From: Stappia indica
Lineage (GTDB): Bacteria > Pseudomonadota > Alphaproteobacteria > Rhizobiales > Stappiaceae
Direction of reading: 5' to 3'
NCBI RefSeq assembly: GCF_009789575.1
Contig: NZ_CP046908.1
Location: forward strand, 1,240,001 to 1,304,000
Length of the DNA stretch: 64,000 bases
Part shown: piece by piece, positions 9,751-56,998 of the stretch
How positions within the stretch are numbered: the first letter of the stretch is position 1
Layout: the number at the start of each line of letters is the position of its first letter
Translations under genes and position numbers: made by a program
The notes under the pieces: model-generated
The model's database searches: none
Told to the model about the DNA's origin: nothing
The model's input: only the letters and a program-made list of their open reading frames with translations

Positions 9751-10620
9751 TCAAAGCGACGCCAACGTGTCCTTGCGGCGCAGCTTCTCCATCACCGGCC
9801 GCTCGCGGGCATAGATGTCGATGACCCCGTCGCCGCGCACCTTCTCGGCCAGACGAATGCCGGCGATCATCTCCTTCATCTGCGCCACGTCGATGGACGC
9901 CGACTGATCGGAGCCCCACATGGTGCGATCGAGCGTGAAGTGACGCTCCACGGACACTGCGCCGAACGCAATCGACAGGATGCTCGGCAGGATCCCGTCC
10001 TCATGGCCGGAATAACCGATCTTGAGATGGGGAAACCGCTCGCGCAGGGTCGAGATGCCGGCAAGGTTGATCTCTTCCGGCAGGGCCGGATAGGTCGAGG
10101 TGCAATGATAGAGGCACGCGATCTCGCCGCCCGCGTCCTCGATGGTTTCCACCACCGCTTCCACCATCTTGAGATTGCACATGCCCGTGGAGATCAGCAG
10201 CGGAACGCGGCTGCGGGCCGCATGCACCAGCAAGGCGCGGTCGGTGACCGACGCCGAGGCGATCTTCAGATAGGGCACGTCCAGCGCCACCAGGAAGTCG
10301 ACCGACGCCTCGTCCCAGGGCGAGGCGTACCAGGTGATGCCGAGCTCGCCGCACAGCGCGGCGATGCGCTCGTAGTCCTTGCGGCCGAATTCCAGCCCGC
10401 GCTTCAGGTCGCCATTGGTCTCGCCGAGCGGCGACTTGCGCGGCTTGGCCAGCTCCTCGGCCGAGTAGACGACGTCGACGGTGCGCTTCTGGAACTTGAC
10501 CGCATCGCAGCCGACGCGGTGGGCGGCGCGGATCATCTCCAGCGCAAGGTCGATGCTGCCATTGTGATTGATGCCGATCTCGGCGACGACAGTGCAGCTG
10601 TCGAATGTAAAGAGGCTCAT
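9751..10620 (-). CDS. neuB: NeuB-family nonulosonic acid synthase, short form
   Basis: 289 aa from the ATG at 10620 (MSLFTFDSCTVVAEIGINHNG); the longer upstream opening lacks family similarity. VAEIGINHNGS, DAVKFQKRT, YASPWDEASVDFL, PYLKIAS, LISTGM, CTSTYP and GYSGHE are NeuB TIM-barrel motifs for condensing PEP with a 6-carbon amino sugar. The protein ends at VMEKLRRKDTLASL. The SAF (antifreeze-like) domain that normally follows in ~350-aa NeuB/PseI/LegI enzymes is absent, and this is not a window-edge effect. First gene of the minus-strand operon; none of the upstream precursor-making enzymes are in this window. Confidence 0.8.
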   Translation of the reverse strand: MSLFTFDSCTVVAEIGINHNGSIDLALEMIRAAHRVGCDAVKFQKRTVDVVYSAEELAKPRKSPLGETNGDLKRGLEFGRKDYERIAALCGELGITWYASPWDEASVDFLVALDVPYLKIASASVTDRALLVHAARSRVPLLISTGMCNLKMVEAVVETIEDAGGEIACLYHCTSTYPALPEEINLAGISTLRERFPHLKIGYSGHEDGILPSILSIAFGAVSVERHFTLDRTMWGSDQSASIDVAQMKEMIAGIRLAEKVRGDGVIDIYARERPVMEKLRRKDTLASL

Positions 10621-10874
10621 CTCGCGATCTTTTCGGGCTCGCGGCAAGCGCTGAACCGCCTGTTGGCGGCCTGAAGCGCTTGCGGGTTTCGCTGTCCGTC
10701 CCTCGCCGCACGGCAATCCCTTAACCGCCGGGAGAGGCAGGCCGGCGCCGATCCATCGGCGGCAGCCTTCGAAGCACGCCCGCAGTATCCCCGTTTCGGC
10801 GTGATTCGGCGAGCAAATTTAAGGACCTGTCGCAAGATGCGAGACTTTGCGGCACCGGTAACCAGCCATTTACC

Positions 10875-10899
10875 TTAACACCGGTTAACCACTTGTTTT
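10875..10899 (+). promoter_or_regulatory. TTAA boxes upstream of flagellin 1
   Basis: TTAA-N6-TTAA (10875-10888) followed by CCACTTG-TTTT. The segment GTTAACCACTTGTT matches GTTAACCACTCGTT upstream of flagellin 3, so it is probably the same element with a degraded right half. It begins 99-109 nt upstream of the ATG. CtrA binding is inference. Confidence 0.4.
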
Positions 10900-10936
10900 T
10901 ACGAATGATTCCGAAACGGAAACGTAGGTTGGCGGG

Positions 10937-10954
10937 GCAACGAGGATGCGTTGC
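10937..10954 (+). promoter_or_regulatory. Flagellin-1 leader stem-loop with AGGATG loop
   Basis: GCAACG and CGTTGC form a perfect 6-bp stem around AGGATG, 30 nt before the ATG. The same AGGAY loop recurs in the leaders of flagellins 2 and 3 on different stems. Candidate site for FlbT, which is known to bind flagellin 5' leaders in Caulobacter, or for a CsrA-type protein, which favours GGA in loops. Confidence 0.5.
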
Positions 10955-10983
10955 GTTAGTTGTTACCAGAAAGGTACACCACA

Positions 10984-12369
10984 ATGAGCGTTACTCTCTC
11001 CGCTGGCGTGCGCCAGAACCTCCTGTCGCTGCAGAAGACTGCCGACATGATGTCCCAGACGCAGAACCGGCTCGCCACGGGCAAGAAGGTCAACTCGGCC
11101 CTCGACAACCCGACCAACTTCTTCACCTCGCAGAACCTGAATTCGCGCGCCAACGAGCTGTCCAGCCTGCTCGACGGCATCTCGAATGCGACGAAGACCC
11201 TGGAAGCTGCCGACAACGGTATCAAGGGCATCACCAAGCTGGTCGAGAGCGCCCAGTCGACGGCTCGTCAGGCGCTTCAGGCCGGCGGCGGCGGTTCCGG
11301 CACCGTGGTGGAGAGCTCCTCGTCGATCTCGACCAACGGCCTGACCCCGGCCTCGGGCGAGACGATCCAGGACCAGGCCAAGCGCCAGACCCTGTCCAAC
11401 CTCGGCTTCACCAACGGCGACACGATCACCGTGCAGGCGACCGACACCGACACCGGTGCCGTCTCCGAGATCGAGATCACCGTCGGCACCACCCAGAAGG
11501 CTGACGGCACGGGCGCGGTCGCGACGGTTCAGGACGCTGTCGACGTCATCAACGCCTCGGGCGTTGCAACGGCGGAAGTCAGCGATGCCGGCAAGCTGAA
11601 GATCTCCGGCTCCGACACCGAGACGGTGAACCTTCAGATCGGCGACAACGACGGCGACGCCGACACGGCGACCACGCAGGCGACCTCGCTGGCCGCGTCG
11701 CTCGGCTTCGGCACCAACACCTCGGTCGACCTGTCGAGCCCGGCGGACGGTGACTACACGGATGCCGGCGAGACGGCCGTCACCTTCACCAATGGTGCCT
11801 CTGCCGGTGCAGCCGACACCTTCTCGATCACCACCACGGCCAACCCGGCCTCGAACTCGTCCTCGCGCCAGAAGCTGGTGTCGCAGTTCAACGAGATCCT
11901 GGGCCAGATCGACAAGCTCGCTGCCGACTCGTCCTACAACGGCGTCAACCTGATCGACTCTTCGTCCTCGAAGCTGACCGTCGCCTTCAACGAGAAGCGT
12001 GACGCAGCCAACAAGTCGGAGCTGTCGATCAGCGGCAAGGACCTCACCTCCTCGGGCCTGGGCCTGGGCAGCGTGTCGAGCCTCAGCGACGCCGAGGCGA
12101 ACGCCACCCTCGACAAGCTGAGCGGCGCCCTGACGTCCCTGCGCGAGACGTCGTCCACCTTCGGTTCGAACCTGAACACGGTCACGATCCGCAAGGACTT
12201 CACCAAGGACCTGATCAACACCCTGCAGACGGGCGCTGACAACCTGGTGCTGGCCGACACCAACGAGGAAGGCGCGAACCTTCTGGCCCTGCAGACCCGC
12301 CAGTCGCTGTCCACCACGGCGCTGTCGCTGTCCTCGCAGGCCGACCAGGCCGTGCTGCGTCTCCTCTAA
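10984..12369 (+). CDS. Flagellin 1
   Basis: 461 aa from the ATG at 10984 (MSVTLSAGVRQNLLSL) with AGAAAGG before it. Flagellin self-assembles into the filament after export. Conserved D0/D1 helices occupy residues ~1-140 (NRLATGKKVNSALDNPTNFF) and ~300-461 (ending LSLSSQADQAVLRLL). The central ~160 residues are the variable, surface-exposed part. It is the most divergent of the three flagellins (N-terminus MSVT rather than MSDIT, LSISGKDLTSSGLGLGSVSS). It has its own leader and terminator, so it is transcribed independently. Confidence 0.95.
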   Translation: MSVTLSAGVRQNLLSLQKTADMMSQTQNRLATGKKVNSALDNPTNFFTSQNLNSRANELSSLLDGISNATKTLEAADNGIKGITKLVESAQSTARQALQAGGGGSGTVVESSSSISTNGLTPASGETIQDQAKRQTLSNLGFTNGDTITVQATDTDTGAVSEIEITVGTTQKADGTGAVATVQDAVDVINASGVATAEVSDAGKLKISGSDTETVNLQIGDNDGDADTATTQATSLAASLGFGTNTSVDLSSPADGDYTDAGETAVTFTNGASAGAADTFSITTTANPASNSSSRQKLVSQFNEILGQIDKLAADSSYNGVNLIDSSSSKLTVAFNEKRDAANKSELSISGKDLTSSGLGLGSVSSLSDAEANATLDKLSGALTSLRETSSTFGSNLNTVTIRKDFTKDLINTLQTGADNLVLADTNEEGANLLALQTRQSLSTTALSLSSQADQAVLRLL

Positions 12370-12398
12370 GACGCCCGCCGCAAGGCACGAAACAACAA

Positions 12399-12430
12399 AG
12401 GGCGGCGGGTCGCGACTCGCCGCCCTTTTT
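12399..12430 (+). terminator. Terminator after flagellin 1
   Basis: AGGGCGGCG (12399-12407) pairs with CGCCGCCCT (12418-12426) and is followed by a T-run (12426-12430). It lies 30 nt after the stop. Confidence 0.9.
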
Positions 12431-12501
12431 CGTGCCTCTTTCGATATGGTTAACGAACCTCTTGGAAGGACAGGCAAATTGAGAACGGGGACAAGGAGCC
12501 G

Positions 12502-12516
12502 TTAACCTTAATTTAG
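12502..12516 (+). promoter_or_regulatory. CtrA-like box TTAA-N7-TTAG upstream of flagellin 2
   Basis: TTAA (12502-12505), 7-nt spacer, TTAG (12513-12516). It starts exactly 91 nt upstream of the ATG, the same distance as the box upstream of flagellin 3. Probable activator site; CtrA is the best-known alphaproteobacterial regulator with this spacing. Confidence 0.5.
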
Positions 12517-12531
12517 CGTTTCCGGGACAGT

Positions 12532-12579
12532 CTGGCTGCGAGCCTCAGGACGAGGCCATGCATAGCTTTGGGCAGCCAG
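12532..12579 (+). promoter_or_regulatory. Flagellin-2 leader structure: outer stem plus AGGAC hairpin
   Basis: The inner hairpin GCCTC-AGGAC-GAGGC (12542-12556) is enclosed by an 8-bp perfect outer stem, CTGGCTGC (12532-12539) with GCAGCCAG (12572-12579). The outer stem ends just before the ribosome-binding site AAAGGA (12580-12585), so folding could affect translation of flagellin 2. The loop AGGAC starts 46 nt before the ATG, as does AGGAT in flagellin 3. Confidence 0.5.
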
Positions 12580-12592
12580 AAAGGATTTCCGA

Positions 12593-13981
12593 ATGTCCGA
12601 CATCACTCTCTCCGCCGGTGTGCGTCAGAACCTGCTGACGCTGCAGAACACCGCCGACATGATGGCCACCACCCAGAACCGCCTTGCCACCGGCAAGAAG
12701 GTCAACTCGGCCCTCGACAACCCGACCAACTTCTTCACCTCGCAGTCGCTGTCGGCCCGCGCCAAGGACCTGACCAACCTGCTCGACGGCATCGGCAACG
12801 CGATCAAGACGATCGAGGCCGCCGACAACGGCATCACCGCCATCACCAAGCTGGTGGAGAGCGCCCAGTCGACCGCCCGCCAGGCGCTGCAGGACGGCTC
12901 GGCCGGTTCGGGCACCGTGGTGGAAAGCTCTTCGTCGATCTCGACCAACGGCCTGTCGCCGGTGGCCGGCGAATCGATCCAGGATCAGGCCAAGCGTCAG
13001 ACCCTGTCCAACCTCGGCTTCACCAACGGCGACACGATCACCCTGCAGACGACGAACACCGACACCGGTGGCGTCGCCCAGATCCAGATCTCCGTCGGCA
13101 CCACCCAGAAGACGGACGGCACCGGCCCGGTCTCGACCGTTCAGGACGTCCTCGACGTGATCAACGCCTCGGGCGTTGCCACGGCTGAGGTCACCGACGC
13201 CGGCAAGCTGAAGATCACCGGCTCCGATTCGGAGACCGTCAATCTCAACATCGGCGACAACGACGGTGACGCCAACACGGCGACCACGCAGGCGACGTCG
13301 CTTGCCGCTTCGCTCGGCTTCGGCACCAACACCTCGATCGATCTGTCGAGCCCGGCGGACGGCGACTATGTCGACGCCGGCGAGACGGGCGTCACCTTCA
13401 CCAACGGCGCCTCTGCCGGTGCAGCCGACACCTTCTCGATCACCACCCAGGCCAACCCGGCTTCGAACTCGTCCACCCGCCAGAAGCTGGTGTCGCAGTT
13501 CAACGACATCCTGGGCCAGATCGACAAGCTCGCTGCCGACGCCTCGTTCAACGGCATCAACCTGATCAACTCGTCGTCCTCCAAGCTGACCGTTGCCTTC
13601 AACGAGAAGCGCGATGCGGCGACGAAGTCGGAGCTGAAGCTGCAGGGCGAGGACCTCACCTCGTCGGGCCTCAACATCACCAAGACGTCGAGCCTGAACG
13701 ACACCGAGGCGAACAACGCGCTCGACGAGCTCTCCGAGGCGCTGATCACCCTGCGCGAGGCCGGCTCCAAGTTCGGTTCGAACCTGTCGACGGTGCAGAT
13801 CCGCAAGGACTACACCAAGGCTGCGGTGAACACGCTGCAGACCGGCGCCGACAACCTGGTGCTGGCCGACACCAACGAGGAAGGTGCGAACCTCCTCGCC
13901 CTGCAGACCCGTCAGCAGCTGTCCACCACGGCTCTGTCGCTGTCCTCGCAGGCCGATCAGGCGGTCCTGCGTCTGTTCTGA
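12593..13981 (+). CDS. Flagellin 2
   Basis: 462 aa, start MSDITLSAGVRQNLLTLQNTADMM behind AAAGGATTTCCGA. It is nearly identical to flagellin 3 in the first ~150 and last ~150 residues, with most differences between residues ~150 and ~280, the outer domains. Same architecture as flagellin 1. Followed by its own strong terminator. Ser/Thr-rich central residues are plausible glycosylation sites for the FlmG-like enzyme, but no residue can be named from sequence alone. Confidence 0.95.
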   Translation: MSDITLSAGVRQNLLTLQNTADMMATTQNRLATGKKVNSALDNPTNFFTSQSLSARAKDLTNLLDGIGNAIKTIEAADNGITAITKLVESAQSTARQALQDGSAGSGTVVESSSSISTNGLSPVAGESIQDQAKRQTLSNLGFTNGDTITLQTTNTDTGGVAQIQISVGTTQKTDGTGPVSTVQDVLDVINASGVATAEVTDAGKLKITGSDSETVNLNIGDNDGDANTATTQATSLAASLGFGTNTSIDLSSPADGDYVDAGETGVTFTNGASAGAADTFSITTQANPASNSSTRQKLVSQFNDILGQIDKLAADASFNGINLINSSSSKLTVAFNEKRDAATKSELKLQGEDLTSSGLNITKTSSLNDTEANNALDELSEALITLREAGSKFGSNLSTVQIRKDYTKAAVNTLQTGADNLVLADTNEEGANLLALQTRQQLSTTALSLSSQADQAVLRLF

Positions 13982-14005
13982 TCAAGAGCGATACGAAGCA
14001 ACAAG

Positions 14006-14030
14006 CGGCGGGCGAAAGCCCGCCGTTTTT
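14006..14030 (+). terminator. Terminator after flagellin 2
   Basis: CGGCGGGC-GAAA-GCCCGCCG (14006-14025) with a GAAA tetraloop, followed by TTTTT. A textbook intrinsic terminator. Confidence 0.93.
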
Positions 14031-14085
14031 CGTTTCAGAATTCCTTTTTGAATCCCTAACATTTTTATCGCGATATGCGACATGG

Positions 14086-14100
14086 TTAACCACTCGTTAG
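14086..14100 (+). promoter_or_regulatory. CtrA-like box TTAA-N7-TTAG upstream of flagellin 3
   Basis: TTAA (14086-14089), CCACTCG, TTAG (14097-14100), preceded by G. It starts exactly 91 nt upstream of the ATG, as in flagellin 2. Sequence between box and leader differs strongly between the two genes, so the box is conserved against a diverged background. Confidence 0.5.
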
Positions 14101-14126
14101 GAATTTCGCGCCAATTATTAACGCGT

Positions 14127-14139
14127 TCTCAGGATGAGA
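14127..14139 (+). promoter_or_regulatory. Flagellin-3 leader stem-loop with AGGAT loop
   Basis: TCTC (14127-14130) and GAGA (14136-14139) enclose AGGAT; CTCAGGATGAG begins 49 nt before the ATG, the same as CTCAGGACGAG in flagellin 2. A second hairpin, CGCCTG-ACTGC-CAGGCG (14142-14158), follows before the ribosome-binding site AAAGGA. Confidence 0.5.
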
Positions 14140-14176
14140 TGCGCCTGACTGCCAGGCGGTGCGAAAGGATTTCCGA

Positions 14177-15565
14177 ATGTCTGACATCACTCTCTCCGCC
14201 GGTGTGCGCCAGAACCTGCTGACGCTGCAGAACACCGCCGACATGATGGCCTCCACCCAGAACCGTCTCGCCACCGGCAAGAAGGTCAACTCGGCCCTCG
14301 ACAACCCGACCAACTTCTTCACCTCGCAGTCGTTGTCGGCCCGCGCCAAGGACCTCACCAACCTGCTCGATGGCATCGGCAACGCGATCAAGACGATCGA
14401 GGCCGCCGACAACGGTATCACCGCCATCACCAAGCTGGTGGAGAGCGCCCAGTCGACCGCGCGCCAGGCGCTGCAGGACGGCTCGGCCGGTTCGGGGACC
14501 GTGGTGGAAAGCTCCTCGTCGATCTCGACCAACGGCCTGACCCCGGTTGCCGGCGAATCGATCCAGGACCAGGCGCGTCGTCAGACCCTGTCCAACCTCG
14601 GCTTCGCCAACGGCGACGTGATCGAGCTGTCCACCTCGAACACGGGCAACGGCGCGATCGCAGGCATCTCGATCACCATCGGCACGACCCAGAAGACCGA
14701 CGGCACCGGCCCGGTCTCGACCGTTCAGGACGTGCTCGACGTCATCAACGCCTCGGGCGTTGCCACGGCTGAGGTCACCGACGCCGGCAAGCTGAAGATC
14801 ACCGCCTCCGACGCGGAAGATCTCTTCCTGAACATCTTCGACACGGGTGGCGACGGCAACACGGCGACCACGCAGCAGACCTCGCTGGCCGCGTCGCTGG
14901 GCTTCGGCACCAACACCTCGATCGACCTGTCGAGCCCGGCCGACGGCGACTATGTGGATCCGGGCGAGACGTCGGTCTCGTTCACGAACGGCGCCTCTGC
15001 CGGCGACCAGGACTCGCTCATCATCGCTGCACGCGCCAATCCGGCCGCGAACTCGTCCACCCGCCAGAAGCTCGTGGGGCAGTTCAACAACATCCTGGGC
15101 CAGATCGACAAGCTCGCTGCCGACGCCTCGTTCAACGGCATCAACCTGATCAACTCCTCGTCCTCCAAGCTGACCGTTGCCTTCAACGAGAAGCGCGATG
15201 CGGCGACGAAGTCGGAGCTCAAGCTCCAGGGCGAGGATCTCACCTCCTCGGGCCTCAGCATCACCAACGTGTCGAGCCTGAGCGATACCGAGGCCAACCA
15301 GGCGCTCGACGAGCTCTCCAACGCGCTGATCACCCTGCGCGAGGCCGGCTCCAAGTTCGGCTCCAGCCTGTCGACCGTGCAGATCCGCAAGGACTTCACC
15401 AAGTCCTCGATCAACACCTTGCAGACGGGCGCCGACAACCTCGTTCTGGCCGACACCAACGAGGAAGGTGCGAACCTTCTCGCCCTGCAGACCCGTCAGC
15501 AGCTGTCCACCACGGCTCTGTCGCTGTCGTCGCAGGCCGATCAGGCGGTGTTGCGTCTGTTCTAA
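14177..15565 (+). CDS. Flagellin 3
   Basis: 462 aa from the ATG at 14177 (MSDITLSAGVRQNLLTLQNTADMM); the in-frame ATG 18 nt upstream lies inside the conserved leader and ribosome-binding region and is rejected. Nearly identical to flagellin 2 at both ends; the centre differs (GNGAIAGISITIGTT, DLFLNIFDTGGDG, GDQDSLIIAARANPAANSS). The identical 5' segment GAAAGGATTTCCGAATGTC in flagellins 2 and 3 shows recent duplication or gene conversion of the ends. Own terminator. Confidence 0.95.
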   Translation: MSDITLSAGVRQNLLTLQNTADMMASTQNRLATGKKVNSALDNPTNFFTSQSLSARAKDLTNLLDGIGNAIKTIEAADNGITAITKLVESAQSTARQALQDGSAGSGTVVESSSSISTNGLTPVAGESIQDQARRQTLSNLGFANGDVIELSTSNTGNGAIAGISITIGTTQKTDGTGPVSTVQDVLDVINASGVATAEVTDAGKLKITASDAEDLFLNIFDTGGDGNTATTQQTSLAASLGFGTNTSIDLSSPADGDYVDPGETSVSFTNGASAGDQDSLIIAARANPAANSSTRQKLVGQFNNILGQIDKLAADASFNGINLINSSSSKLTVAFNEKRDAATKSELKLQGEDLTSSGLSITNVSSLSDTEANQALDELSNALITLREAGSKFGSSLSTVQIRKDFTKSSINTLQTGADNLVLADTNEEGANLLALQTRQQLSTTALSLSSQADQAVLRLF

Positions 15566-15590
15566 GGTAAATACTAGGCAACTATTTCCA

Positions 15591-15617
15591 GGCGGCGGGT
15601 CTCCCGCCGCCTTTTTT
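15591..15617 (+). terminator. Terminator after flagellin 3
   Basis: GGCGGCGGG-TCT-CCCGCCGCC (15591-15611) followed by TTTTTT. It separates the flagellins from flbT. Confidence 0.92.
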
Positions 15618-15673
15618 ATTCTGGAAGCGCTTAAACTCTTGCTTGAATCACTGCGCTATGAGAGTATTCGACC

Positions 15674-16168
15674 ATGGCACTGAAGATCGAACTACGCCCC
15701 AAGGAAAGGTTTATCGTCGGGTCAACCGTGATCACCAACGGCGACCACCGAACGCATATCTTCATCGAGGGCAGCGAACCGATCCTTCGCGAGAAAGACA
15801 TCTACACCGCCGAAACTGCGAATACGCCCGCGAAACGGATCTATCTTGCGGTGCAGCTCATGTATCTCAACCAGGATATCGAGCGGCACAGGAAGGTCTA
15901 TTTCGATCTGATCAACGACTTCATTCAGGCGGCACCGAGCACCATCGGCCTGATCGACGCCGTCAACAATGAGATCTTAACCGGTTCTCTCTACGCTGCC
16001 TTGCGACGGGCTAAGGAACTGGTCGAGTACGAACGGGAACTGATCGCACATGCACAATCTGGCCACCGCAGCATATCAGCAGACGACGCAATCGACCGTG
16101 AGCCCGCGCGAGCTGGAGGCCACGCTGCTTCTCAAGGCGGCAGCCAGGCTTCAGGCCGTCAAGGATGA
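15674..16168 (+). CDS. flbT: Flagellin post-transcriptional regulator FlbT
   Basis: 164 aa. LKIELRPKERFIVGSTVITNGD, HIFIEGSEPILREKDIY and PAKRIYLAVQLMYL are FlbT signatures. In Caulobacter FlbT binds the 5' untranslated region of flagellin mRNA and represses or destabilises it until the hook is finished. The last ~30 residues (DREPARAGGHAASQGGSQASGRQG) are low-complexity and fall in the part that overlaps flaF, so the C-terminal tail is probably a by-product of the overlap. Directly downstream of its presumed targets. Confidence 0.93.
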   Translation: MALKIELRPKERFIVGSTVITNGDHRTHIFIEGSEPILREKDIYTAETANTPAKRIYLAVQLMYLNQDIERHRKVYFDLINDFIQAAPSTIGLIDAVNNEILTGSLYAALRRAKELVEYERELIAHAQSGHRSISADDAIDREPARAGGHAASQGGSQASGRQG

Positions 16169-16421
16169 TTGGGGCAACGACGGCGGTCCGGTGACGCTGG
16201 ACGAAGCGCTGTCCTACAACCGTCGCCTCTGGACGATCCTCGCGACCTCGGTCACGAGCAACGACAATCCGATGCCGATGGAGATCAAGCAGAACCTCGG
16301 TTCGCTCGGCGCGTTCATTCTCAAGCACACGCTTGATGTGATGACCAATCCCAGCCCCGAGCGGCTGACGACGCTGATCCAGATCAATCGCAACATCGCA
16401 CAGGGCCTGCGAGGCACCTGA
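16050..16421 (+). CDS. flaF: Flagellar biosynthesis regulator FlaF
   Basis: 123 aa. MHNLATAAYQQTTQSTVSPRELEATLLLKAAARL and ALSYNRRLWTILATSVTSNDNPMPMEIKQNLGSLGAFILKHTLDVM are typical FlaF. FlaF acts opposite to FlbT, promoting flagellin synthesis or export, probably as a chaperone-like partner. Its ATG lies 119 nt inside flbT in another frame, an unusually long overlap that should couple the two antagonists. Followed by a terminator. Confidence 0.92.
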   Translation: MHNLATAAYQQTTQSTVSPRELEATLLLKAAARLQAVKDDWGNDGGPVTLDEALSYNRRLWTILATSVTSNDNPMPMEIKQNLGSLGAFILKHTLDVMTNPSPERLTTLIQINRNIAQGLRGT

Positions 16422-16458
16422 CGCCGGGAGCCTCTGGGCATCCCCTCCCTGCCTTCCG

Positions 16459-16483
16459 AACGCCGGCCTTGTGCCGGCGTTTT
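16459..16483 (+). terminator. Terminator after flaF
   Basis: AACGCCGGC (16459-16467) and GCCGGCGTT (16473-16481), loop CTTGT, then a T-run to 16483. It lies 38 nt after the flaF stop. Confidence 0.85.
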
Positions 16484-16531
16484 GCGTAGCGGCAAACGGG
16501 CGCCGCATGGCCGGCGCCAGACGTCACGCCA

Positions 16532-16578
16532 ACAAGCAGAAACCCCGGAGAACAGTGTTCCCCGGGGTTTCTGCTTGT
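16532..16578. terminator. Long bidirectional terminator between convergent flaF and flgL
   Basis: ACAAGCAGAAACCCCGG (16532-16548) is perfectly complementary to 16562-16578, a 17-bp stem with a further partial GAAC/GTTC pairing inside. AAA/TTT within the stem suits termination in both directions. It lies 54 nt beyond the flgL stop. Confidence 0.75.
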
Positions 16579-16631
16579 ATATTCAAGCCACTGCGAAAGA
16601 GCGCGGCAGACCCGATCAGCGTGCGGTACTG

Positions 16632-55763: not shown

Positions 55764-56998
55764 CCGGCGCGCTTCGCCCGGTTCGAGACGACGAGGCCGG
55801 CGACCAGGCACACCCCGCCGATGCCGGACAGCACCGACATCGCCAGGAAAGCCGAGACCGGGCTGGAGGCGTAGAGCACGCCTGCGGCGGCGGAGGCCAG
55901 CGCCGTCACCGCACCGATCACCATCGAGTTGACGCCCTGGGCAGCGCCCGCCCACTGCGGCGGCGCCATGCGCGCGACGAAGGCGACGGCGCCGAGATGG
56001 GTCGCGCCGAAGCTGAGCCCGTGCAGCAGCTGCACCAGGACGATGGAGACGGGATCCTCCACGAAGGGAAACAGGATCCAGCGCAGGATGGCGCCGGCAA
56101 TGCCGATGGCCAGCAGGCCGTTGACGCCCAGCACCGCCCGCACCCGCGCCGAGGCGGCGAACAGGCCGATCTCGGTGATCACCCCCAGCCCCCAATAGAT
56201 GCCGACGGCCGCACCGGAAACGCCGGTCTGCGACCAGTGGAGCGCGCTGAAGGCGTAATAGGCCGCATGGCTGGCCTGCGCGCAACCCGCCGCCAGGATC
56301 ACCAGCAGGAAGCCGGGCGTCACGAAGGCGCCCTCGCGCAGCAGCGCGGCCAACCCCTTTCGGCGGGCAGGAAGGGCGCGCGGCGCGCCCTCTTCCATCA
56401 CCTCGGCGAGCGCGGTGTCGGGCGAGGCGATCGAGACCGATTCGTTTTCATCGACCCGGATTCGCGGCAGCTTGACGCTGAGCGCGGCGACCCCGGCCGC
56501 AACCAGCCCGGCGACGATGCCGCCGACCACGACCCCGGTCGTCCACTCGCCGATCAGCACGCCGCCGATCACGTTCGCCACGATGAAGGAGACCGAGCCC
56601 CACAGCCGCATGCGGCCATAATCGCCCTTGCCCTCGCGCTCGACGCGGGCCGCCAGCGCGTCCCCCAGCGGCATCAGGGGCGACCAGGCGATGGAGATGA
56701 CCACCAGCAGCACGGCGCTGGCGAAGAAGCTCTTGGCGAAGAAAAAGCCTGAAAACGCAATGGCGGCGAGAATGCTGAGCAGGGCCACGGCCCGGCCCGG
56801 CGTGCCGAAGCGGTCGACGGCCGCGCCGATCAGGGGGTTGGCCGCAAGCCGCACCAGCATCGGGATGGCGAGCAGCGTGCCGATCTCTCCGGGGCTCAGG
56901 CCCGCCTCGGACAGCACCAGCGGAAAGAACGGGAGAAACAGGCCGAGGCCGAAGAAATAGGCTGCGAAGATCGCCGCAACCCTTGCGTGAAGGGGCAT
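55760..56998 (-). CDS. MFS transporter, phenylpropionate/HcaT-like
   Basis: 412 aa with 12 predicted helices. VFFGLGLFLPFFPL-like start (AYFFGLGLFLPFFPLVLSEAGLSPGEIGTLLAI), NPLIGAAVDRFGTPGRAVALL (motif A region), GDALAARVEREGKGDYGRMRLWGSVSFIVANVIGGVLI typical of the MFS_1-like/HcaT group. It is convergent with dgcA, and the two genes overlap by 4 nt at CTAG where each uses the palindrome for its own stop. Substrate unknown. Confidence 0.82.
   Translation of the reverse strand: MPLHARVAAIFAAYFFGLGLFLPFFPLVLSEAGLSPGEIGTLLAIPMLVRLAANPLIGAAVDRFGTPGRAVALLSILAAIAFSGFFFAKSFFASAVLLVVISIAWSPLMPLGDALAARVEREGKGDYGRMRLWGSVSFIVANVIGGVLIGEWTTGVVVGGIVAGLVAAGVAALSVKLPRIRVDENESVSIASPDTALAEVMEEGAPRALPARRKGLAALLREGAFVTPGFLLVILAAGCAQASHAAYYAFSALHWSQTGVSGAAVGIYWGLGVITEIGLFAASARVRAVLGVNGLLAIGIAGAILRWILFPFVEDPVSIVLVQLLHGLSFGATHLGAVAFVARMAPPQWAGAAQGVNSMVIGAVTALASAAAGVLYASSPVSAFLAMSVLSGIGGVCLVAGLVVSNRAKRAG

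Follow-up and report, generated by a model that had tools for sequence, protein, structure and literature searches.

The closest described counterparts of the element reported here are the translational operators of CsrA/RsmA. These operators present GGA in a hairpin loop and combine an upstream site with a site over the Shine-Dalgarno (SD) sequence. The repeat of CsrB, an RNA bound by CsrA, is CAGGA(U/A/C)G; repression of glgC by CsrA uses one hairpin site and one site over the SD sequence; and CsrA can act either way on an SD hairpin (PMC7652899). Flagellin mRNA is a target in the CsrA-FliW system (PMC4894983), which in Campylobacter and Bacillus consists of an RNA-binding protein and an opposing partner. 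The other related system is FlbT of Caulobacter crescentus, a post-transcriptional flagellin regulator that acts on the 5' leader and was proposed to bind it (PMC4347634, PMC3930126), as described for the fljK leader (Anderson and Gober 2000, via reviews). The table of a 2015 review lists the mechanism of FlbT as unresolved, without a binding motif (PMC4347634). The regulatory flagellin FljJ binds FlbT and controls the translation of other flagellins, and FlaF is a flagellin secretion chaperone in Caulobacter (PMC7591256). Dugar et al. 2016 suggested FlaF-FlbT as analogous to CsrA-FliW (PMC4894983). In this study, a 64,000-nucleotide (nt) stretch of Stappia indica DNA (contig NZ_CP046908.1, positions 1,240,001 to 1,304,000; hereafter the window) was analysed. 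It contains three tandem flagellin genes followed by flbT and flaF, with a flgL-like gene and flgK on the opposite strand. Comparison with homologous leaders suggests that the flagellin leaders probably form a two-site translational operator of the CsrA type, now read by FlbT as the candidate reader.

All three flagellin leaders contain an upstream hairpin with AGGA in its loop. The genes and these hairpins are as follows, with the loops in square brackets.

10984..12369, plus strand: flagellin gene 1 (Pfam Flagellin_N and Flagellin_C)
12593..13981, plus strand: flagellin gene 2 (Pfam match)
14177..15565, plus strand: flagellin gene 3 (Pfam match)
15674..16168, plus strand: flbT (Pfam FlbT, E 5.3e-39), the proposed reader of the hairpins
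16050..16421, plus strand: flaF (Pfam FlaF, E 4.4e-34), overlapping flbT and encoding the proposed partner of FlbT
10937..10954, plus strand: upstream hairpin of gene 1, GCAACG[AGGATG]CGTTGC, a G-C-closed hexaloop and a variant of the pentaloop form
12542..12556, plus strand: upstream hairpin of gene 2, GCCT-C[AGGAC]G-AGGC, with the heptamer CAGGACG
14127..14139, plus strand: upstream hairpin of gene 3, TCT-C[AGGAT]G-AGA, with the heptamer CAGGATG

The sequences, coordinates, perfect stems and AGGA loops given for these hairpins in the initial annotation were confirmed, and so was the distance of 46 nt from loop start to ATG in genes 2 and 3 (ATGs at 12593 and 14177); it is 41 nt in gene 1. 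The counterparts of the gene 1 hairpin within the genus keep the stem, and their loops read AGGATG, AGGACG, AGAACC, AGAATA, and AGAACG. When the 100-nt leaders of genes 1, 2, and 3 were subjected to 2000 dinucleotide shuffles, hairpins with an AGRA loop whose stem equalled or exceeded the native one in length appeared in 1, 7, and 12 of them, respectively. The minimum-energy fold lacks the hairpin in gene 1 (z 0.07), contains it in gene 2 (z -0.96), and extends it in gene 3 to a longer, bulged stem that ends in a GGA triloop (z -1.92). Since these single-sequence folds are unimpressive, comparison with relatives was required. The string AAAGGATTTCCGAATG is common to the leaders of genes 2 and 3, which are thus related.

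The family set consisted of 40 regions around flbT from relatives, with 104 distinct flagellin leaders including those of the window (the count leaves out locus identifiers L001, L014, and L032-L034). A hairpin of at least 5 base pairs (bp) with AGRA at the loop start, located at -70 to -26, was found in 76 of the 104 leaders, whereas 200 shuffles averaged 1.3 such leaders and never exceeded 5. The commonest loop-start words were AGGA (49 leaders) and AGAA (28), with the next word at 5, and 31 different five-base stem pairs surrounded the AGRA loop. The larger set of 291 distinct leaders combined the family, 80 named loci (almost all with titles that place them in Rhizobiales; 68 of them gave flagellins), and 57 regions of a class-wide sample. 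In this set, an upstream hairpin with an AGRA loop and 4 or more bp in its stem was present in 174/291 flagellin leaders, versus 59/2060 other open reading frame (ORF) starts.

In the heptamer test, every CAGRANG was taken regardless of its flanks and pairing was asked afterwards; identical 80-nt leaders were merged, here and in the group counts below. The next three pairs were formed in 123 of 154 upstream sites, versus 321 of 4019 elsewhere in the same loci. Among 111 similarity-thinned sites, both partners vary at six of the seven pairs (choosing sites by heptamer fixes the seventh), and 77.6% of the cells pair. The covariation score was 0.623, versus 0.208 when shuffled and at most 0.262 with the partner slid. 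Five strong CAGRANG hairpins lie before other ORFs in the same loci, and one of the three distinct ones listed is a flagellin. In 51 leaders that come from other genera and were chosen for carrying both hairpins, covariation is seen in both helices, the upstream one and the SD-proximal one described below. These comparisons of homologous leaders firmly support that the hairpins are real and under selection. The proposal of the initial annotation that they are a selected RNA structure was therefore borne out by the heptamer test, the hairpin enrichment, and the stem covariation.

The initial annotation named CsrA merely as an analogy, and missed a second hairpin over the ribosome-binding site. 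The corresponding features in the window are listed below.

10964..10976, plus strand: second hairpin of gene 1, over the SD sequence, TACC[AGAAA]GGTA, 4 bp, loop without GGA
12576..12584, plus strand: second site of gene 2, over the SD sequence, CC[AGAAA]GG, just 2 bp, aligned by covariance model R1
12531..12539, plus strand: 5' arm of the enclosing stem of gene 2, TCTGGCTGC, 9 bp
12572..12580, plus strand: 3' arm of the enclosing stem of gene 2, GCAGCCAGA, overlapping the second site

The enclosing stem had been given as 8 bp; it is present, but measures 9 bp, and the 2-bp second hairpin of gene 2 competes with it. An SD-proximal AGRA hairpin with a stem of at least 3 bp was found in 177/291 flagellin leaders and 80/2060 other ORF starts. 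Among starts with AGRA at that position, the same hairpin was formed in 177/253 flagellin leaders versus 80/429 others. Examples include TCCT[AGAA]AGGA, CCC[AGGAAA]GGG, and the TACC[AGAAA]GGTA seen in gene 1. The upstream and SD-proximal hairpins occur together in 139 of the 291 leaders, and their loop starts are 25-28 nt apart in 69 of these 139. For CAGRANG heptamers at the SD position, the three further pairs are formed in 12/75; this less regular pairing is probably because the loop length varies there. In the 51 leaders, 75.0% of the cells of the second helix pair, and each of its four pairs shows two-sided changes, although two of them do so rarely. Leaders of Bosea, as read by eye, contain three consecutive hairpins.

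A covariance model (R1) was built without the window's own genus. Within the window it recognised the leader of gene 2 with 16.7 bits (E 0.011). A search of the whole genome again ranked this leader first, though at E 0.86, and gave three further matches with E values reaching 5.7; R1 does not have the strength for searches on a genome scale. The flg-Rhizobiales motif (Rfam RF01736), given as a structured RNA of Rhizobiales (PMC2864571), was also considered as the identity of the hairpins. It is likewise a structured RNA of this order with a name suggesting flagellar genes, but it has no match at the flagellin leaders of the window, and was rejected. No row up to E 5 was obtained in positions 10600-16600, none in the loci of seven relatives, and none of the 86 family genomes had a match over the cut-off with stricter filters. 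Sub-threshold matches were found in 14 of the 86 family genomes (L076-L079 and other relatives). Twelve of the 14 share a contig with flbT at a distance of 13.6-19.5 kb, which places them at another locus; the other two are on other contigs.

Which protein may read the hairpins was addressed by comparing CsrA and FlbT across Alphaproteobacteria. The Stappia indica genome has no match to CsrA (PF02599), so that CsrA was rejected as the reader in this genome, and it encodes a single FlbT, beside the flagellins. CsrA was also not found in 11 other genomes of the same order. In the class sample, FlbT is present in 55 of 143 genomes. CsrA was found in 20 of 32 FlbT-less flagellates (defined by a Flagellin_N match with E <= 1e-15; 32 of 33 were tested, G193 being left out), and in 0 of 41 FlbT carriers (41 of the 55 were tested, without the flagellin filter used for the FlbT-less genomes). 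Since the genome lacks CsrA and has one FlbT, and the element is found in FlbT lineages, FlbT is the best-supported candidate reader.

The group counts considered C-G-closed hairpins with a stem of at least 4 bp and a loop of 4-6 nt. AGRA loops were found in 154/238 leaders of the family and named FlbT loci (shuffled mean 2.6, maximum 7). In class-wide FlbT genomes, AGRA was found in 17/78 leaders and AAAA in 15/78 (shuffled means 0.58 and 0.55). In FlbT-less genomes with CsrA, 8/26 leaders carry AGRA, all of them AGGA (shuffled 0.22, maximum 2), and AGGT is found in 5. Genomes with neither protein carry AGRA in 1/12 leaders (shuffled 0.12). No C-G-closed AGAA loop was found among the 26 leaders of the CsrA group, where one AGAA has another closing pair (L266). 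The CsrA group stands clearly above its shuffles, but its difference from the genomes lacking both proteins is not significant (Fisher p 0.22; p 0.03 when AGGT was added post hoc). The loop in class-wide FlbT genomes is often AAAAN, C-G-closed, and some leaders have two in tandem (L080, L082, L090, L094, L296, L299-L301, L304, L308, and L310). The csrA neighbourhoods were also inspected, 20 of which were fetched. Two have the order flgK-flgL-csrA-fliW (L324 and L327), one has flgK-(unscanned ORF)-csrA-fliW (L315), and in two others csrA lies near rod or fliP genes (L318 and L321). The flgK-flgL-csrA-fliW order recalls flbT-flaF beside the flgL-like and flgK genes in the window.

These findings modify the initial claim that the hairpin is the site of FlbT. 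The claim gains indirect support from the absence of CsrA in the genome, the single FlbT, and the occurrence of the element in FlbT lineages, but the hairpins found in FlbT-less CsrA genomes (8/26 leaders) mean that the element is not exclusive to FlbT. No sampled genome was found to carry both CsrA and FlbT, and where FlbT is present AGAA and AAAA loops are used as well; the element was thus probably inherited from a CsrA-controlled ancestor. Compared with CsrA operators, CsrA itself is absent here, and the AGAA and AAAA loops of relatives lack GGA. Most SELEX (systematic evolution of ligands by exponential enrichment) sites of CsrA have a six-base loop and stems of at most four pairs (PMC7652899), whereas the loops here are mostly of five bases with stems of 4-7 bp. 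In contrast to CsrA-FliW, the FlbT and FlaF proteins encoded in the window each fall into a Pfam family of their own and match neither CsrA nor FliW.

In the proposed mechanism, the upstream hairpin presents an A-G-R-A-N loop closed by C-G (CAGRANG). The second, weaker AGRA hairpin, in about half of the leaders and most often 25-28 nt downstream, holds the SD sequence. FlbT might dock on the upstream hairpin and act on the SD hairpin, and its action might set ribosome access and the life of the mRNA until the hook-basal body is complete. This two-site use would parallel that of CsrA, with a hairpin site and an SD site. FlbT represses in Caulobacter but was reported as an activator in Brucella melitensis (PMC4347634), and a motility-gene screen in Agrobacterium hit flbT (PMC9812332). 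Opening of the SD hairpin may therefore be as likely as its closing in this Rhizobiales relative.

Several observations weigh against this interpretation. Gene 1 carries a hexaloop variant, and gene 3 has no clear second site over the SD sequence. With R1, genes 1 and 3 reached just E 2.5 and 6.1 in the window and were outranked by position 56029, an unrelated site (E 1.5). RNAalifold predicted the upstream hairpin alone in the 51 leaders. The leader counts are not independent because the loci are related. Many of the flagellins next to flbT have no such hairpins. Among the leaders of class-wide FlbT genomes, the 17/78 with AGRA loops rise to just 30/78 when AAAA and AAGA loops are included. 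The difference between CsrA carriers (8/26) and genomes with neither protein (1/12) is not significant (Fisher p 0.22), and two of the eight CsrA-carrier hairpins (L278 and L290) are weak stems at the SD sequence itself. The exclusion of CsrA and FlbT tracks deep clades and does not represent independent events, and its FlbT carriers were taken without the flagellin filter. The reported activation in Brucella differs from the repression in Caulobacter, and a flbT mutant of Phaeobacter remained motile (PMC11974857).

A first alternative is that the hairpins act without a protein: the upstream one would stabilise the mRNA at its 5' end, and ribosome access would be tuned by the downstream one. 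Boxes of the form TTAA-N7-TTAG, which we take to be CtrA-like, lie upstream of genes 2 and 3, and the leader of gene 1 has none.

12502..12516, plus strand: CtrA-like box upstream of gene 2
14086..14100, plus strand: CtrA-like box upstream of gene 3

Boxes of the form TTAA-N7-TTA[AG] occur in 92/291 flagellin leaders and 1/872 in-gene stretches; the box was first noticed in the window and the in-gene control is GC-rich coding DNA, so this comparison is suggestive only. Of the 70 leaders having both, 52 have the box start 39-42 nt ahead of the hairpin start. This spacing suggests that transcription may begin at or just before the hairpin, in which case the mRNA may start with the hairpin itself, as expected if it acts without a protein. 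The SD-proximal stem also often pairs UCCU with AGGA. However, a purely structural role needs no fixed loop, and AGGA and AGAA predominate by far among the loop-start words of the family set, while stems vary. This explanation appears unlikely.

It is also rather improbable that the loops are read by another RNA-binding protein or a small RNA in place of FlbT. Genomes without FlbT do contain similar hairpins, but those of them that have such AGGA hairpins carry CsrA, which this genome lacks, and FlbT is the protein known to regulate flagellin post-transcriptionally in this class. A DNA element, namely an inverted repeat bound by a transcription factor, would fit the location just downstream of the CtrA-like box in genes 2 and 3. 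A DNA-binding factor would, however, need constant arms, whereas the arms here differ and covary around an asymmetric, fixed centre, and the second copy sits over the SD sequence; this possibility is very unlikely. Chance likeness among three duplicated leaders, for which the relatedness of the leaders of genes 2 and 3 could be cited, is already refuted by the counts in shuffles and at other ORF starts and by the covariation in relatives, and its probability is negligible.

Eighteen flagellins, all encoded next to flbT, form one clade (FastTree support 100) that lacks both hairpins, although the other flagellins at these loci mostly have them. The loci belong to Roseibium, Pannonibacter, and relatives (L052-L055, L067-L072, L144, L146, L148, L162, L165, L178, L182, and L189). 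Resembling the arrangement of FljJ, this hairpin-less clade is a candidate FljJ-like regulatory flagellin. Among 65 family and named loci with multiple flagellins, the adjacent copy lacks the hairpin and all the others have it in 37, and all copies have it in 13. In six loci the adjacent copy lacks it and just some of the others have it; four loci have none, and in five the adjacent copy alone carries it. Among four class loci, the adjacent copy alone lacks the hairpin in one, and alone carries it in three. A general tie between hairpin lack and flbT adjacency is not significant over independent pairs on the tree (p 0.39); hairpin lack is thus a clade-level pattern.

Two further features of the locus were observed. 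A gene of the NeuB family (E 3.7e-70) lies on the minus strand at 9751-10617, just upstream of the flagellins, and may serve flagellin glycosylation with a sialic-acid-like sugar. At 13999-14125 on the minus strand, there is a weak match to PrrB_RsmZ, a CsrA-capturing RNA family (25.4 bits, cut-off 44, E 0.0069). This match, antisense to the region between genes 2 and 3, is probably due to chance.

A possible descent of FlbT from CsrA was also considered. By eye, the N-terminus of FlbT (LKPGE..IINGAVI...LREKDI) resembles alphaproteobacterial CsrA (GESVIIND.IEVTV...VLRREIY), with R39-E40 of FlbT against R44-E45 of CsrA; R44 of CsrA is critical for RNA binding (PMC7652899). Profiles of gammaproteobacterial CsrA showed no signal above shuffles against FlbT. 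With 19 alphaproteobacterial CsrAs (L329, one of the 20 stretches, had no csrA match and was left out), the profiles align over the strands of FlbT (P 0.0011, probability 20.8%), and 1 of 120 column shuffles scored higher. FlbT ranked first of 78 families from the same loci, with a score of 18.8 versus 18.4 for the next, over just 13 columns. None of 28 FlbT proteins matched Pfam CsrA (PF02599) at E up to 10 with the HMMER filters on. Weak matches to Pfam Sm_like were seen in the N-terminal part of 4 of the 28 (best E 0.016). An hmmsearch of 8328 ORFs with alphaproteobacterial CsrA gave nine weak matches, six of which were FlbT; the best three were not FlbT, and the best E was 0.72.

Structural analysis was performed with an AlphaFold2 model of FlbT. 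Over residues 1-128 the predicted local distance difference test (pLDDT) score was 94.9; a single-sequence model was poor (pLDDT 46.7). In the model, FlbT has a five-strand N-terminal part (strands 3-7, 12-15, 18-21, 27-31, and 37-39) followed by four helices. The Foldseek search with this model gave no match at E <= 0.001. CsrA was not among the matches listed in two fold searches, which does not count against a shared fold, since the VIA rows mainly covered residues 48-128 and barely the N-terminal part. Searches against solved structures gave no match with one sequence, and matches to the helical part alone with a profile (E 0.03 or worse). A PADLOC scan of FlbT gave one weak match, to Cas4d (E 0.036), which is taken as chance, and a scan of viral contigs for FlbT gave no match.

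With borderline profile statistics and a first rank held by a hair, homology of FlbT and CsrA is not claimed; descent of FlbT from CsrA is suggested by the sequences but not established. It is tentatively possible, although somewhat doubtful, that FlbT is a remodelled CsrA and that the alphaproteobacterial CsrA-FliW flagellin switch became FlbT-FlaF, with the strands carrying R44 and R39 in register. If this were true, the operator RNA (CAGGANG hairpins and the SD site) and the gene neighbourhood would have been kept in the change from CsrA to FlbT. FlbT would have gained a helical domain and a relaxed loop specificity (AGAA and AAAA), and the hairpin-less flbT-adjacent flagellin clade would be a free-running sensor, like FljJ in Caulobacter.

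In summary, an operator of the CsrA sort is ordinary in kind but unexpected in its place, beside FlbT and in bacteria without CsrA. In the open-access literature covered, with subscription papers and the FlbT originals outside its scope, no such proposal was found beyond a one-sentence analogy (PMC4894983). The present analyses provide a precise candidate site for FlbT, a second site over the ribosome-binding site, and predictions at the level of the loops. They also suggest how flagellated Alphaproteobacteria without CsrA might control flagellin: the operator may have been retained, and another protein seems to read it.

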